The translations under genes and the position numbers were made by a program. A DNA stretch of 64,000 nucleotides from Streptomyces sp. NRRL F-5126. Its GTDB lineage: Bacteria > Actinomycetota > Actinomycetes > Streptomycetales > Streptomycetaceae. How positions within the stretch are numbered: the stretch's first letter is position 1; every line of letters starts with the position of its first letter. The stretch is from contig NZ_JOFZ01000015.1 in assembly GCF_000721265.1 (NCBI RefSeq), forward strand, positions 1-64,000, read 5' to 3'. Below the pieces are notes generated by a model, which worked only from the letters and a program-made list of their open reading frames with translations, was not told where the DNA came from and ran no database searches. Below, piece after piece: positions 43,355-52,906 of this stretch.

Positions 43355-45813
43355 TCCGCTGTCCGGGACACCGCGCGCAGCGTCCTCCCGCTTCCCGTGA
43401 CGGCGATCTCGCCGTCCTTGTCGGTCCGCAGAACCGTCGCGCCCCAGGCCCGCAGCGCACCCACCGTACGCGGTGACGGATGCCCGTACGGGTTGCCCGT
43501 GCCGCACGAGATCAGCGCGAGACGCGGGCTCAGCACGCGCATCAGACGCGCGTCCTGGTGGGCGGAGCCGTGGTGGGCGACTTTCAGGACGTCCACACGC
43601 GGCAGAGCGGGGTACGACCTCAGCAGCGCCCGCTGCGCGAACGGCTCGAGGTCTCCAGGCAGCAGCAGCGTGGGGCCGCGATCGACGGTCACCAGCATGG
43701 TGACGCTGGAGTCGTTGGGCTCCTCCGTCACGGGCCCAGGACCGGCGCGCGGCCAGAGCACCCGCCAGGACAGCGGCCCCACCTCGCGCCGCTCCCCGGC
43801 CACCGCGGGCGCCACCGGCACCCCGGCCGCGGCCGCCGTGCGCCGGACGAACGCCGCCTCACCCGCGGGCTCGTAAAACGTCGTCGTCTCGATCTGCCCG
43901 ACGGAGCGCCCGTGCAACACCCCGGGCAGCCCGGTCACATGGTCGGCGTGGAAGTGGGTGAGTACCAGCAGCGGAATCCGCTCCACCCCGAGTTGCCGCA
44001 GGCAGCGATCCACGAGCGCCGCGTCGGGGCCCGCGTCCACGACGACGGCGCTGCCCGGCCCGGCGGCGAGTACCGTCGCGTCCCCCTGGCCCACGTCGCA
44101 CATCGCGTAGGACCAGCCGGGCGGCGGCCAGCCCGTCACGAGCCGGGTGACCGCCGGCGGCCGAAGCAGCGCCAGGAGCAGCAGCACCGCGCACACCGCC
44201 GCCGTCCAGGGCCGGTGCCTGAGCCCGCGCGCCACCAGCAGCAGCGCGACCGTCACCCCGGCCAGCAGCGCACCACTCGCCCAGCCGCCCGGCCACGCCA
44301 GCTGCGCGCCGGGCAGCGCGGCCCCGGCTCGTGCGACCCCGGCGATCCAGCCGGCGGGCCACCCCGCGCACCGGGCCAGCACGTGGGCGAGCGGCATCGC
44401 GACGGGCGCGGTGGCCAGGGCCGCGAACCCCAGCACCGTCGCGGACGCCACGGCCGGCTCGGCCGCGAGGTTGCACGGCACCGCCACCAGGCCGACGCGT
44501 GCGGCGAACACCGCGACCACCGGAGCGCACACGGCCTGCGCGGCGCCTGCCGCCGCGAGCACCTCCGCGAGCCGCTCCGGCACGCCGCGCCGCACGAGCG
44601 CGGCGCTCCACCGCGGCCCGATCGTCAGCAGCGCACCCGTGGCCAGCACCGACAGCGCGAAGCCGTAGCTGCGCGCCAGCCACGGGTCGTACAGCACGAG
44701 TGCCAGTACGGCCGCGGCCAGCGCCGGGATCAGCGACCTGCGCCGGCCGGTGGCGATGGCGAGCAGCGTCACAAGACCGCAGGCGGCGGCCCGCAGCACG
44801 CTCGGGTCCGGACGGCAGACCACGACGAACGCCAGGGCCACCGCCCCGCCGAGCAGTGCCGTCACCCGCAGGGGGATGCCCAACCGGGCGGCGAGGCCCC
44901 GTCTTTCCGCCCGCAGCGCGAGCGCGGGCGGGCCGATGAGCAGCGACAGCACAAGGCTGAGGTTGCTTCCCGAGACGGCGGTGAGGTGCGTGAGGTCGGT
45001 GGCTTGGAACGCGGCGTCGAGTTCCGCCGTGATCCTTGAGGTGTCGCCGACCACCAGTCCTGGCAGCAGCGCACGCGCGTCGGACGGGAGCGGGGCCGTG
45101 GCCTTCCTGAGCCCGGCCCGCAGTCCGCCCGCGGTGCGTTGCGCCCAGGTCGGCCGCCCGGCCACGGCCGGCGGCGCCCCCGAGCGCGCGGGCCTCAGGA
45201 TCGCCGCATGGGTGGCGTCGTCCGGGAACGGCGGCTCGAACCGCGCCGTGAGGCGCAGCCGTGTCGACGGCAGCAGCCGCTGCCATGCCGCCGTGTGGCC
45301 GCCGGGCGTCACGAACACGAGGACGGGCGTGGCGACCTCGACGGCGGGCCCGGCGCGCGGGGACACCTTGACGACGCGCGCGTCGAACATCAGCGACGCG
45401 GCCGCCAGATGGTCGCCCGTGACCTTCTGCCGCACCGGCCGCGGGTCGGACGAGACGGTCACCTCGACGGCGGCGCTCCCGTAGCGCTCCGCGAGGGCGG
45501 GCACCGGCCCGCGGTGGACGTCCGCCGCGTGCAGTCCCGCCGACACCGCGCCCGCCGCCGCGCAGCAGAGCACGGCCACGAGTACGGGACACCAGGTGCG
45601 GGAGCGCCGGGCCCAGAGCGCAGCCGCCGCCGCGAGGCAGCCGGCCACGGCGGCGGCCGTCCAGCGCGCCGGCAGGCCGACGGCGAGGGCAGCAGCTCCC
45701 CATGCGGCGAGCGCGGGCGGCACGAGCCGCGCGTCGGCCGGGCCCTCGCCGAGGCGATCGAGGCGGCCGGGACCCTGCCCGTCCGCTGCGGTCGGGCCCT
45801 CGCGACGCTTCAC
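43339..45813 (-). CDS. comEC: ComEC/Rec2-family DNA channel and MBL protein
   Basis: An 824-aa polytopic protein. N-terminal helices and DUF4131-like soluble part (about 30-250), the competence membrane domain with TDLTHLTAVSGSNLSLVLSLL (shown by HLTAVSGSNLSLV, about 275-290) and many transmembrane segments to about 560, then a metallo-beta-lactamase domain with LTHFHADHVTGLPG, EPNDSSVTMLV, LLPGDLEP and KVAHHGSAHQD. It forms the inner-membrane channel for single-stranded DNA uptake in competent bacteria; its role in streptomycetes is unclear. GTG start overlaps the comEA TGA (GTGA), so translation is coupled. Confidence 0.93.
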   Translation of the reverse strand: MKRREGPTAADGQGPGRLDRLGEGPADARLVPPALAAWGAAALAVGLPARWTAAAVAGCLAAAAALWARRSRTWCPVLVAVLCCAAAGAVSAGLHAADVHRGPVPALAERYGSAAVEVTVSSDPRPVRQKVTGDHLAAASLMFDARVVKVSPRAGPAVEVATPVLVFVTPGGHTAAWQRLLPSTRLRLTARFEPPFPDDATHAAILRPARSGAPPAVAGRPTWAQRTAGGLRAGLRKATAPLPSDARALLPGLVVGDTSRITAELDAAFQATDLTHLTAVSGSNLSLVLSLLIGPPALALRAERRGLAARLGIPLRVTALLGGAVALAFVVVCRPDPSVLRAAACGLVTLLAIATGRRRSLIPALAAAVLALVLYDPWLARSYGFALSVLATGALLTIGPRWSAALVRRGVPERLAEVLAAAGAAQAVCAPVVAVFAARVGLVAVPCNLAAEPAVASATVLGFAALATAPVAMPLAHVLARCAGWPAGWIAGVARAGAALPGAQLAWPGGWASGALLAGVTVALLLVARGLRHRPWTAAVCAVLLLLALLRPPAVTRLVTGWPPPGWSYAMCDVGQGDATVLAAGPGSAVVVDAGPDAALVDRCLRQLGVERIPLLVLTHFHADHVTGLPGVLHGRSVGQIETTTFYEPAGEAAFVRRTAAAAGVPVAPAVAGERREVGPLSWRVLWPRAGPGPVTEEPNDSSVTMLVTVDRGPTLLLPGDLEPFAQRALLRSYPALPRVDVLKVAHHGSAHQDARLMRVLSPRLALISCGTGNPYGHPSPRTVGALRAWGATVLRTDKDGEIAVTGSGRTLRAVSRTADRPTG

Positions 45814-48908: not shown

Positions 48909-51794
48909 CTACGCCGGCACGATGTTCACGAGCTTCGGCGCGCGGACGATCACCTTCCTGATCCCCGCGCCGCCCAGCGCCGCCACCACCCCGGGCTGGG
49001 CGAGCGCCAGCGCCTCGAGATCGGCGTCGGACACCGAGGGCGGCACGTCGAGGCGCGCCTTCACCTTGCCCTTGACCTGCACCACGCACGTCACCGTCTC
49101 GTCCACGACGTACGCCGGGTCCGCGACGGGGAAGTCCTGGTGGACGACGGTGTCGGTGTGGCCGAGCCGGTGCCACAGCTCCTCGGCGATGTGCGGGGCG
49201 AACGGCGCGACGAGCAGCACGAGCCGCTCGGCCACGGACCGTGCGACCGGGGCCGCCGTCTTCGTCAGGTGGTTGTTCAGCTCGGTGATCTTGGCGACCG
49301 CGGTGTTGAACCGCAGCGCCTCCAGGTCCTGGGTGACCCCGTCGATCGCCTTGTGCAGCGCGCGCAGGGTCTCCTCGCCGGCTTCGGCGTCCACCACGGT
49401 GACGTCGCCGGTCGCCTCGTCCACGACGTTGCGCCACAGCCGCTGCAGCAGCCGGTACTGGCCGACGACCGCGCGCGTGTCCCAGGGCCTGGACACGTCG
49501 AGCGGGCCCATGGCCATCTCGTAGAGGCGCAGCGTGTCCGTGCCGTACTCGGCGCTGATCTCGTCGGGCGTGACGGCGTTCTTCAGCGACTTGCCCATCT
49601 TGCCGAGCAGCCGGCTGACCTTCTCGCCCTCGTAGTAGTAGGCGCCGTCGCGCTCCTCGACCTCGGCCGCGGGTACGGCGATGCCGCGCTTGTCGCGGTG
49701 GACGAACGCCTGGATCATGCCCTGGTTGTACAGCTTGTGGAACGGCTCGGAGGCCGAGATGTGCCCCAGGTCGAACAGCACCTTGATCCACATGCGGGAG
49801 TACAGCAGGTGGAGCACGGCGTGCTCCGCCCCGCCCACGTACAGGTCGACGCCGCCGTGCGGCATGCCCTCACGCGGCCCCATCCAGTACCGCTCGACGG
49901 CGGGGTCGACGGCCTCGGCGGTGTTGGTCGGGTCCAGGTAGCGCAGCATGTACCAGCAGGAACCCGCCCAGTTGGGCATGGTGTTCGTCTCGCGGCGGTA
50001 GCGCCTGACGCCCCGTCCGTCGCCCAGGTCCAGGTCGACTTCGACCCAGTCCTCGTTGCGCGACAGCGGCGTCTCGGGCTCGGTGTCGGCGTCGTCCGCG
50101 TCGAACGTGCGCGGCGAGTAGTCGTCGACCTCGGGCAGTTCGAGCGGCAGCATCGACTCGGGCAGCGCGTGCGCGGTGCCCTCCTCGTCGTAGACGATCG
50201 GGAAGGGCTCGCCCCAGTACCGCTGGCGGCTGAACAGCCAGTCGCGCAGCCGGTAGTTGACTGTGCCCTCGCCGATGCCGGTCTCGGCGAGCCAGGCGGT
50301 GATGCGGGCCTTGGCCTCGACGACGCCGAGGCCGTCGAGGGCGATGTCCGTGCCCGTGGAGTTGACCAGCACGGCGTCGTAGGAGGCGAACGCGTCGTCC
50401 CATGCGGCCGGGTCGGTGGAGCGGCCGTCGGTCGGCTGCACGACGCAGCGCATCGGGAGCTCGAAGGCGCGCGCGAAGGCGAAGTCGCGGCTGTCGTGGG
50501 CGGGCACGGCCATGATCGCGCCGGTGCCGTAGCCCATCAGGACGTAGTCGGCGATGAAGACGGGCACCTGGTCGCCGCTGACGGGGTTGGTTGCGAACGC
50601 GCCGGTGAAGACGCCCGTCTTGTCCTTGGCCTCCGCCTGACGCTCGACGTCCGACTTCGAGGCCGCCTGCTTGCGGTAGGCGTCGACGGCGTCGGCCGGG
50701 GTCGCGTGGCCGCCCGTCCATACCTCGTGCGTGTCGGCGGGCCAGGCGGCGGGCACGATCTTGTCGACCAGGTCGTGCTCGGGCGCGAGCACCATGTACG
50801 TGGCGCCGAACAGCGTGTCCTGGCGCGTGGTGAAGACGGTGATCGCGTCGCCCGCGCCGCCCACCGGGAAGTCGACGCGCGCGCCCTCGCTGCGGCCGAT
50901 CCAGTTGCGCTGCTGGAGCTTGATGGCCTCGGGCCAGTCCAGGGCGTCCAGGTCGTCGATCAGCCGGTCGGCGTACGCGGTGATCCGCATGTTCCACTGG
51001 CGCAGCTTCTTCTTGAACACCGGGTAGTTGCCGCGCTCGGAGCGGCCGTCCGCGGTGACCTCCTCGTTGGCCAGCACGGTGCCGAGCCCGGGGCACCAGT
51101 TGACCGGCGCGTCCGAGGCGTACGCCAGCCGGTACCGCCCCAGCACGTCGGCGCGCTCGGCGTCACCGAGCGCCGACCAGGGCCGCCCGTCGGGAGTCGG
51201 CCGCTGCCCCCGCTCGAACTGGGCGACGAGCGTCTCGACGGGCCGCGCCTTGCCCGCGGCCGGGTCGTACCAGGAATGGAAGATCTGCACGAAGATCCAC
51301 TGCGTCCAGCGGTAGAACTCCGGGTCGATCGTCGCGACCGCGCGCCGCTTGTCGTGGCCGAGACCCAGGCGGCGCAACTGCCGCGTCATGTTCTCCATGG
51401 CGGCCTCGGTGGAGACCCTGGGGTGGGTGCCGGTGGCGACGGCGTGCTGCTCAGCGGGCAGGCCGAAGGCGTCGAAGCCCAGCGTGTGCAGCACGTTGTG
51501 GCCCGTCATCCGCTGGTGGCGCGCGTACACGTCGGTGGCGATGAAGCCGAGGGGGTGCCCTACGTGCAGGCCGACGCCCGACGGGTACGGGAACATGTCC
51601 ATGACGTACCGCTTGGGCCTGGCCACGATCGCCGGGTCGCCGGCCAGGTCACCGCTCGGGTTGGGCGCTTCGTACGTGCCGTCGGCGTCCCAGAAGTCCT
51701 GCCAGCGCGCCTCGATGTCGGCGGCCATGGCGGCCGTGTAGCGGTGGGGCGCGGTGTTCTCCGCGCCGGCGGCAGCCGGGTTCGTCTCGCTCAT
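48909..51794 (-). CDS. leuS: Leucyl-tRNA synthetase
   Basis: A 961-aa class Ia synthetase. The HIGH-like motif is in [14 protein letters not shown], the large CP1 editing domain has [18 protein letters not shown] (shown by [12 protein letters not shown]), the KMSKS loop reads [11 protein letters not shown], and the C-terminal domain contains [12 protein letters not shown]. It charges tRNA-Leu with leucine. The ATG at 51794 ([10 protein letters not shown]) is chosen because the frame upstream covers a leader with its own peptide and a terminator. Expression is very likely controlled by the leucine-codon attenuator at 51857-51963. Confidence 0.97.
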
Positions 51795-51856
51795 GTCCTC
51801 AGAAGCTCCATCGGTCGTCTCTGCCGCGGGTCCCAGTCGTTTCTGCCGCGGGAACG

Positions 51857-51934
51857 AAAAAACCCCTCGCACAGGAGGGGACGCCGCGCTGATTTTGACG
51901 GGATCTCTCATCCGCCGGTACTGATCAGCGCGGC
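51857..51934 (-). promoter_or_regulatory. leuS attenuator: hairpin pair and U-tailed terminator
   Basis: On the minus strand GCCGCGCTGAT (51934-51924) pairs perfectly with ATCAGCGCGGC (51893-51883). Two bases later comes CCCCTC-N6-GAGGGG followed by six U (51880-51857), an intrinsic terminator unusual in its clean U tract for this genome. The 5' arm of the first hairpin overlaps the last codons and stop of the leader peptide, so ribosome position would decide which structures form. Confidence 0.8.
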
Positions 51935-51963
51935 TCGCTAAGCAGAAGGCGTACGGCACGCAT
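51925..51963 (-). CDS. leuS leader peptide [12 protein letters not shown]
   Basis: A 12-codon ORF about 130 bases upstream of the leuS ATG, with three consecutive leucine codons CTT CTG CTT. CTT is rare in streptomycetes, which favours stalling when leucyl-tRNA is short. A TAACCT hexamer ends 6 bases before the ATG, so the transcript may be leaderless, starting at or near the ATG; no ribosome site is visible. A stalled ribosome would alter folding of the hairpin and terminator downstream, so leuS rises when charged tRNA-Leu falls. Confidence 0.8.
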
Positions 51964-52008
51964 GCGCACAGGTTACCGCAGCCGCCGCAAGGGCCGCACG
52001 GCGCATGC

Positions 52009-52042
52009 GTGAGGGCCCGTCCCCTGGGGGGCGGGCCCTCAC
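52009..52042 (-). terminator. Terminator after the first tRNA-Ala
   Basis: GTGAGGGCCCG and CGGGCCCTCAC, a perfect 11-bp stem, 18 bases past the tRNA 3' end. It separates the tRNA from the leuS leader. Confidence 0.8.
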
Positions 52043-52059
52043 GCCGAGTACACCGATTG

Positions 52060-52132
52060 TGGAGCTAAGGAGAATTGAACTCCTGACCTCCTGCATGCCA
52101 TGCAGGCGCTCTACCAACTGAGCTATAGCCCC
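52060..52132 (-). tRNA. tRNA-Ala(GGC), copy 1
   Basis: 73 nt folding into a full cloverleaf: acceptor GGGGCTA/TAGCTCC with the G3:U70 wobble that identifies tRNA-Ala, D arm AGCTCAGTTGGTAGAGC, anticodon loop ATGGCAT with anticodon GGC, T arm with GTTCAATTC and discriminator A. CCA is not encoded. Identical to the copy at 52834-52906. Confidence 0.97.
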
Positions 52133-52212
52133 GTGCGATGGGGCAACAGTACACGGTGACCAGGCTGGATCACCAATTCGTCGGCCCCGGCGTCAGGCCC
52201 GCGCGAACGGCG

Positions 52213-52817: not shown

Positions 52818-52833
52818 GTCTGCGTAGGAACCG

Positions 52834-52906
52834 TGGAGCTAAGGAGAATTGAACTCCTGACCTCCTGCATGCCATGCAGGCGCTCTACCAACTGAGCTAT
52901 AGCCCC
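52834..52906 (-). tRNA. tRNA-Ala(GGC), copy 2
   Basis: Identical over all 73 nt to copy 1, with a few identical flanking bases (GTG before and after). Anticodon GGC reads GCC and GCU alanine codons, the former being the commonest Ala codon in this genome. It has its own terminator. Confidence 0.97.

Follow-up and report, generated by a model that had tools for sequence, protein, structure and literature searches.

Is transcription of leuS, the gene for leucyl-tRNA synthetase, controlled in Streptomyces by a ribosome that translates a short leader peptide? The question is raised by a locus of Streptomyces sp. NRRL F-5126, which we studied within a window of 64,000 nucleotides (the whole stretch of DNA that was analysed). 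A sequence-only reading of this DNA had pointed to a 12-codon ORF with the codons CTT CTG CTT, an 11-bp hairpin over its stop codon and a stem with a tail of six U ahead of leuS. Each of these elements was found, and all lie on the minus strand.

The leader of leuS and its known relatives

The locus consists of the following elements:

51970..51975 (-): TAACCT, a promoter hexamer of the -10 type, 6 nt ahead of the leader ATG
51925..51963 (-): leader ORF of 12 codons, leaderless translation probable
51940..51948 (-): Leu codons CTT CTG CTT, the third of which (51942-51940) is the near-invariant CTT
51924..51934 (-): hairpin arm A, GCCGCGCTGAT, with the stop codon inside; supported by covariation
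51883..51893 (-): hairpin arm A', ATCAGCGCGGC, the partner of arm A; supported by covariation
51863..51880 (-): terminator hairpin CCCCTC-CTGTGC-GAGGGG; supported by terminator scan and covariation
51857..51862 (-): U-tract (T6), directly 3' of the terminator stem
48909..51794 (-): leuS, leucyl-tRNA synthetase of 961 aa, by match to profile TIGR00396

The codons of the leader ORF are ATG CGT GCC GTA CGC CTT CTG CTT AGC GAG CCG CGC TGA (minus strand). Arms A and A' form a perfect 11-bp hairpin whose 5' arm includes the stop codon and the two codons before it, and the spacing from A' to the terminator amounts to two bases. The identity of leuS is based on the NCBIfam profile leuS_bact (TIGR00396), for which we observed 878 bits compared to a cut-off of 548. 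Across both strands of 51700-52160 we detected 2 terminator-like sites compared to 0.2 in shuffled sequences, and the leuS-leader terminator is the stronger one. The folding energy of the leader region was unremarkable (z -1.37), with 13 of 200 shuffles folding equally well.

Other features were noted in the same window. Upstream of leuS on the minus strand are two equally scoring tRNA-Ala(GGC) genes (52059-52132 and 52833-52906), ~0.8 kb apart. Between tRNA-Ala and the leader we found a perfect 12-bp inverted repeat, CGTGAGGGCCCG/CGGGCCCTCACG (52008-52043), which has no T-run. ARAGORN also reported a 74-nt tRNA-Ser(GCT) at 44198-44271 on the minus strand; this call has no Rfam support and is probably false.

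A leuS attenuator in Streptomyces is already known. Classical attenuators before leuS were predicted for S. avermitilis and S. coelicolor in 2005 (Seliverstov et al., PMC1262725), and the sequence-only reading, which regarded attenuation of leuS by a leader peptide as less familiar, was therefore outdated on this point. The 2005 attenuators resemble the locus studied here in that a leader ORF, hairpins and a terminator with a U-tail precede leuS. In its account of leuS that report names an antiterminator hairpin, for which we found no covariation, and it reports two species only, whereas the leader described here spans much of the class. In 2021 the leader leuL2 (SLIV_24828) was described before leuS of S. 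lividans TK24 (PMC8079986), with an identical peptide and a leaderless start, followed by a hairpin and uridines. As far as the published description of leuL2 allows a comparison there is no anatomical difference: here too the peptide precedes leuS, and a hairpin and a uridine stretch lie between leader and leuS. Leu control codons in a short ORF and an intrinsic terminator between this ORF and leuS, two marks of a classical attenuator, are likewise found.

Two other systems are similar in part. The uORFC-8-2 motif before cysS of Rhodobacterales (PMC8632094) is also a candidate for ribosome-mediated attenuation of a synthetase gene, again by way of a short ORF that contains the control codons; as described there it differs in the amino acid (cysteine) and in belonging to alphaproteobacteria. 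The LEU element before leuA of Actinobacteria, as outlined in PMC1262725, is again an actinobacterial leader ORF with Leu codons, but is characterised by a pseudoknot or base stem with a Shine-Dalgarno box and precedes another gene. Our literature search found no report of a leuS attenuator outside Streptomyces (Lopatovskaya et al. 2010 may hold such predictions) and no report of a leucine response of leuS. A Term-seq study of S. clavuligerus gives 150 premature transcription units, and its main text does not contain the words leucyl or tRNA synthetase (PMC8269248).

Distribution, start site and codons of the leader

With up to 3 mismatches allowed, the 39-nt leader ORF was found in 382 of 392 Streptomyces genomes, and the reversed-pattern control gave 0 among the rows listed. 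Seven of the 10 misses have a diverged leader, two (G297 and G045) showed none, and the remaining genome (G001, 79% complete) has no LeuS match. In G297 and G045 (loci L184 and L185) the sole LeuS match is ~45% identical to that of the window and we found no leader upstream of it, which suggests a gene replacement. In the family sample the leader was present in 61 of 61 genomes from 17 genera, with LLL in 58 and two Leu left in 3 of them. The rest of the order showed it in 15 of 15 cases, one with two Leu. Among further loci of the class with a long LeuS it was present in 20 of 42 (L113 with a single Leu) and absent in 22 of 42.

For a wider search we used a covariance model built from 58 elements. 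At E values up to 0.01, where the weakest matches may be due to chance, it matched 185 of 394 genomes of the class and 75 of 137 genera; in the genome studied here there was one match. We compared the position of the matches to leuS coordinates: among the matches listed, 39 of 41 are on the same strand and 9-199 nt upstream of leuS, and the other two are on another contig. Of 60 matches chosen and fetched from 21 families, 58 had a recognisable LeuS of the long or short type downstream. The two exceptions are L252, which was weak in the LeuS test but stands upstream of leuS by its coordinates, and L235, which ends with its contig. A restriction of the leader to the long LeuS type is ruled out, as model matches also stand before the short type. 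One genome (G711; loci L269 and L270) has two leuS genes, one nearer the short and one nearer the long type, each with a leader of its own. When 296 genomes from across the phylum were sampled, 16 matched the model; one of these (G952) is outside the class.

A scan with the leader pattern gave a LeuS within 900 nt downstream for 72 of 80 matches among those listed, a check that is based on the long-LeuS query alone. As for the other 8 among the matches listed, L287, L327, L338, L344 and L351 have less than 180 nt of sequence left, L303 shows a frame variant with ~320 nt remaining, and L284 and L345 are apparently chance matches. Among the matches listed the pattern occurred in Kitasatospora, Streptacidiphilus, Catenulispora, Actinospica, Amycolatopsis, Prauserella, Saccharomonospora, Jiangella, Actinopolymorpha, Nocardioides, Kineosporia, Isoptericola and Ornithinimicrobium, as well as in a MAG with the label Nitriliruptorales, an order that belongs to a different class. 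Two MAG contigs labelled Chloroflexi and Acidobacteria (L302 and L354) hold an actinomycete-like leader and a LeuS that is 63-64% identical to that of the window; they are probably misbinned.

The sequence-only reading had considered a leaderless start of the peptide, and this view is supported. All 150 unique elements have a TANNNT box that stops 6 or 7 nt short of the leader start, and none of the other spacers between 0 and 24 nt was observed. For the pattern-found set we observed such a box in 71 of 78 cases among the matches listed, compared to 1 in the control; the chance matches L284 and L345 (records labelled Deltaproteobacteria and SAR202) were left out of this count. A scan of the leader region for sigma-70-type promoters returned 0 sites, and the case for the -10 box is hence based on its conservation and on the S. 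lividans data. In S. lividans TK24 RNA-seq of 5' ends identified the AUG of leuL2 as a leaderless start (PMC8079986). The peptide of leuL2 is identical, and with this leaderless start transcription in S. lividans begins at the leader itself and not downstream of the position equivalent to 51925, where a start would have spoken against the proposed leader.

A box of the same kind was observed at loci that have no leader. In 12 of 24 such loci (L095, L101-L104, L107, L108, L118, L120, L121, L127 and L131) a TANNNT box is located 6-8 nt before an in-frame start of leuS, compared to 0 of 160 loci with a leader. Where the leader is missing, leuS itself thus often looks leaderless.

Conservation of the Leu run in relatives, which the sequence-only reading had set as a check, is apparent from the spread of the ORF through Streptomyces and is accompanied by covariation of both stems. 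Across the 150 unique elements Leu occupies the first, second and third place of the run in 146, 148 and 150 cases, respectively. These counts are inflated because the search favoured LLL: a short ORF with LLL was the search criterion for most elements, and five variants were added by hand. The choice of CTT is free of this bias except in L003-L032, which were found by a CTT-holding pattern with up to 3 mismatches. At the third place, 147 of the 150 elements have CTT and 3 have CTC. As background we took the 5' portions of 103 leuS genes from the same loci, in which only 1 of 1173 Leu codons is CTT. Outside Streptomyces, 78 of 81 loci that were located by way of leuS have CTT at the third place. 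The 59 model-found elements show CTT in 52 and CTC in 7 cases at the third place, a second Leu in 59 of 59 and a first Leu in at least 46; the pattern-found set, for which CTT was demanded, does not enter the codon counts. Judged by these comparisons the Leu codons are under selection.

In this genome ARAGORN identified tRNA-Leu with the anticodon GAG twice and with CAG, TAA and CAA once each (10 long-arm tRNAs of the 63 tRNA matches were examined). A GAG anticodon reads CUU by wobble. The presence of tRNA-Leu(GAG) therefore allows the decoding of CUU, and it is silent on charging. From theory, the codons favoured in leaders are expected to be those whose tRNA is sensitive to starvation (PMC1183508, in its treatment of codon choice). 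In enteric attenuators, too, a rare Leu codon serves as control codon, CUA there compared to CUU here.

Covariation of the hairpins and the search for an antiterminator

The sequence-only reading had raised the question of whether the hairpin and the U-tailed stem covary among relatives. Alignment A1 contains 58 of 61 picked elements (loop of at most 45 nt and at least 8 pairs). Pairing holds in 96.6% of its 928 cells, and both sides changed in 5 of 16 pairs, compared to 1.5 in shuffled and 0-2 in slid controls. Alignment A3 contains 100 diverse elements, leaving out the partial match L259. Here 98.1% of 1593 cells pair and both-side changes occur in 11 of 16 pairs, although A3 was fitted to the covariance model and so leans towards the modelled structure. 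We counted 90 cells with both-side changes in A3 compared to 16.3 in the shuffles, and the slid controls gave 1-3 pairs. We also scanned all pairs of well-filled A3 columns with a scoring that is free of structure. The helix pairs and the columns of the -10 box rank top, and the scan adds one or two pairs to the base of the terminator. By all three measures both hairpins, A:A' and the terminator, covary.

Some variation around the terminator was observed in its own right. Amycolatopsis-type loci (L280, L298, L299, L301, L313, L316, L320 and others) keep the leader and both hairpins, and their T-run is broken up (TCGAGTTGTTTC); with the U-tract eroded, termination may differ in these loci. In a set drawn mostly from Streptomyces and its family, leaving out elements with fewer than 8 pairs, 123 of 148 elements have a TGYG motif in the terminator loop (51874-51869 in the window), 102 of them at exactly 12 nt past the end of A'. 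The diverse set shows the motif in only 55 of 100 elements. We take TGYG to be pause-like by its consensus, and a pause hairpin with TGYG ~12 nt after A' is put forward here purely as an idea.

The sequence-only reading had furthermore proposed an antiterminator fold that excludes the terminator. The best candidate that we identified is a pairing of GCGCGG in A' with CUGYGC in the terminator loop. In a strict switch of the trp type the free A' would pair with this loop, loop out the 5' arm of the terminator and act as a true antiterminator. Two observations are in line with such a switch: 91.8% of 343 A1 cells allow the pairing, and when 65 distinct nascent segments were folded, many had this pairing as their lowest-energy fold. 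Its comparative record points the other way. None of the A' x loop pairs in A1 changed on both sides and the covariation score is equal to that of shuffles (245 of 500 were as high). Across 100 elements the real loops folded no better than shuffled ones (mean z +0.19; 3 of 100 at a rank of at most 0.05). The all-column scan returned a single A' x loop pair (140-168), with a score at background level. A' hardly varies and the covariation test is therefore low in power. The place of the stop codon differs in some families, unlike in the strict trp-type design. We regard a strict trp-type switch as rather doubtful. Overall the sequence-only reading is supported in part: the conservation that it had set as a check and the leaderless start that it had considered are supported, whereas its antiterminator was not found.

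How the leader may control leuS

In our assessment the leader is likely to be a ribosome-mediated transcription attenuator of leuS. Very probably more leucyl-tRNA synthetase is made when charged Leu-tRNA is short, a response to leucine that we infer from the anatomy of the locus. Transcription would start at or beside the AUG of the 12-codon leaderless ORF. If charged Leu-tRNA is ample, the ribosome would clear the Leu codons and A would pair with A'; with A:A' formed the adjoining terminator would form as well and many transcripts would end before leuS. If charged Leu-tRNA is scarce, the ribosome would stall on the Leu run. Once the third codon (CUU) occupied its A site, this ribosome would cover the first bases of arm A, and A:A' could not form because the start of this arm is masked. 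The terminator would then fail more often and leuS would be transcribed. The loss of A:A' may weaken the terminator in one of two ways, either by A' pairing with the terminator loop or by the loss of a helper or pause hairpin. Ribosome stalling, the masking of arm A and the failure of termination are proposed steps, as is the leucine response.

The geometry of the leader is consistent with this proposal. Given ordinary ribosome footprints, approximately the first five bases of arm A would be covered when the third Leu codon occupies the A site, whereas a ribosome waiting at the first Leu codon would cover none. This fits with the third codon being the constrained one. Arm A starts 8 nt past the first base of the third Leu codon, and in 98 of 100 diverse elements no gap falls between the Leu run and this arm. 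In contrast, the length of the loop, the N-terminus of the peptide and, in some families, the position of the stop codon vary, and the peptide ends and the hairpin loop differ between families. A spacing that stays fixed while these parts vary indicates that the waiting place of the ribosome relative to arm A seems to matter. The enteric trp and leu operon attenuators likewise combine a short ORF that contains control codons with a U-tailed terminator downstream. Compared to these, the leader described here differs in its leaderless start, in the synthetase as its target, in the Leu run being upstream of the first arm and in having no demonstrated antiterminator.

The leader could also be translated and matter in some way other than classical attenuation, for example with a constitutive terminator and with translation modulating only mRNA stability or the basal level. 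Leader codon changes in S. coelicolor, as told in PMC1262725, provide a precedent: they had no effect for ilvB and an effect inconsistent with attenuation for leuA. The want of a covarying antiterminator and the eroded U-tract in Amycolatopsis-type loci point in the same direction. Without a leucine-dependent ribosome position, however, the position-fixed Leu codons, the rare third codon and the steady place before leuS would be hard to explain, and we consider such a mode of control unlikely. Action in trans of the terminated leader RNA or of the peptide, as a small RNA or peptide, is very improbable. It would agree with the very high conservation within the genus, and the leader peptide peTrpL of Sinorhizobium has been reported to act in trans (PMC7298713, in its description of peTrpL). 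The conserved parts of the leuS leader are nevertheless those that attenuation requires, the peptide ends and the hairpin loop vary by family, and the element keeps to leuS. Control by a T-box, as is common for synthetase genes of Gram-positive bacteria, is extremely improbable: we found no support for it, Rfam at gathering thresholds matched only two tRNAs in the whole window, and a search of 51780-52020 up to E = 1 returned zero matches.

Attenuation by the translating ribosome remains our preferred reading, and a more far-reaching form of it is conceivable, which we offer tentatively. There might be one ancestral leuS attenuator across the class Actinomycetes, standing before both LeuS types, that reads the charging of tRNA-Leu(GAG) by means of a single fixed rare CUU 8 nt before the hairpin arm. 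It would have no dedicated antiterminator; the waiting ribosome would just block a helper hairpin beside the terminator. Lineages without the leader would often have a leaderless leuS transcribed from the same kind of promoter.

As the switch itself has been published, the finding is in this respect an ordinary one. By comparative measures the leuS attenuator is real and under selection, and it is wider than reported in the literature that we found. The comparison adds a strongly covarying alignment, one conserved rare codon, natural losses and the same leader before a different LeuS type. A curated model of the leader element would be useful, because it has no match among the Rfam families. 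With this material, the way in which a leaderless leader of actinomycetes acts on its terminator, with an antiterminator or without, can be tested in standard Streptomyces strains.
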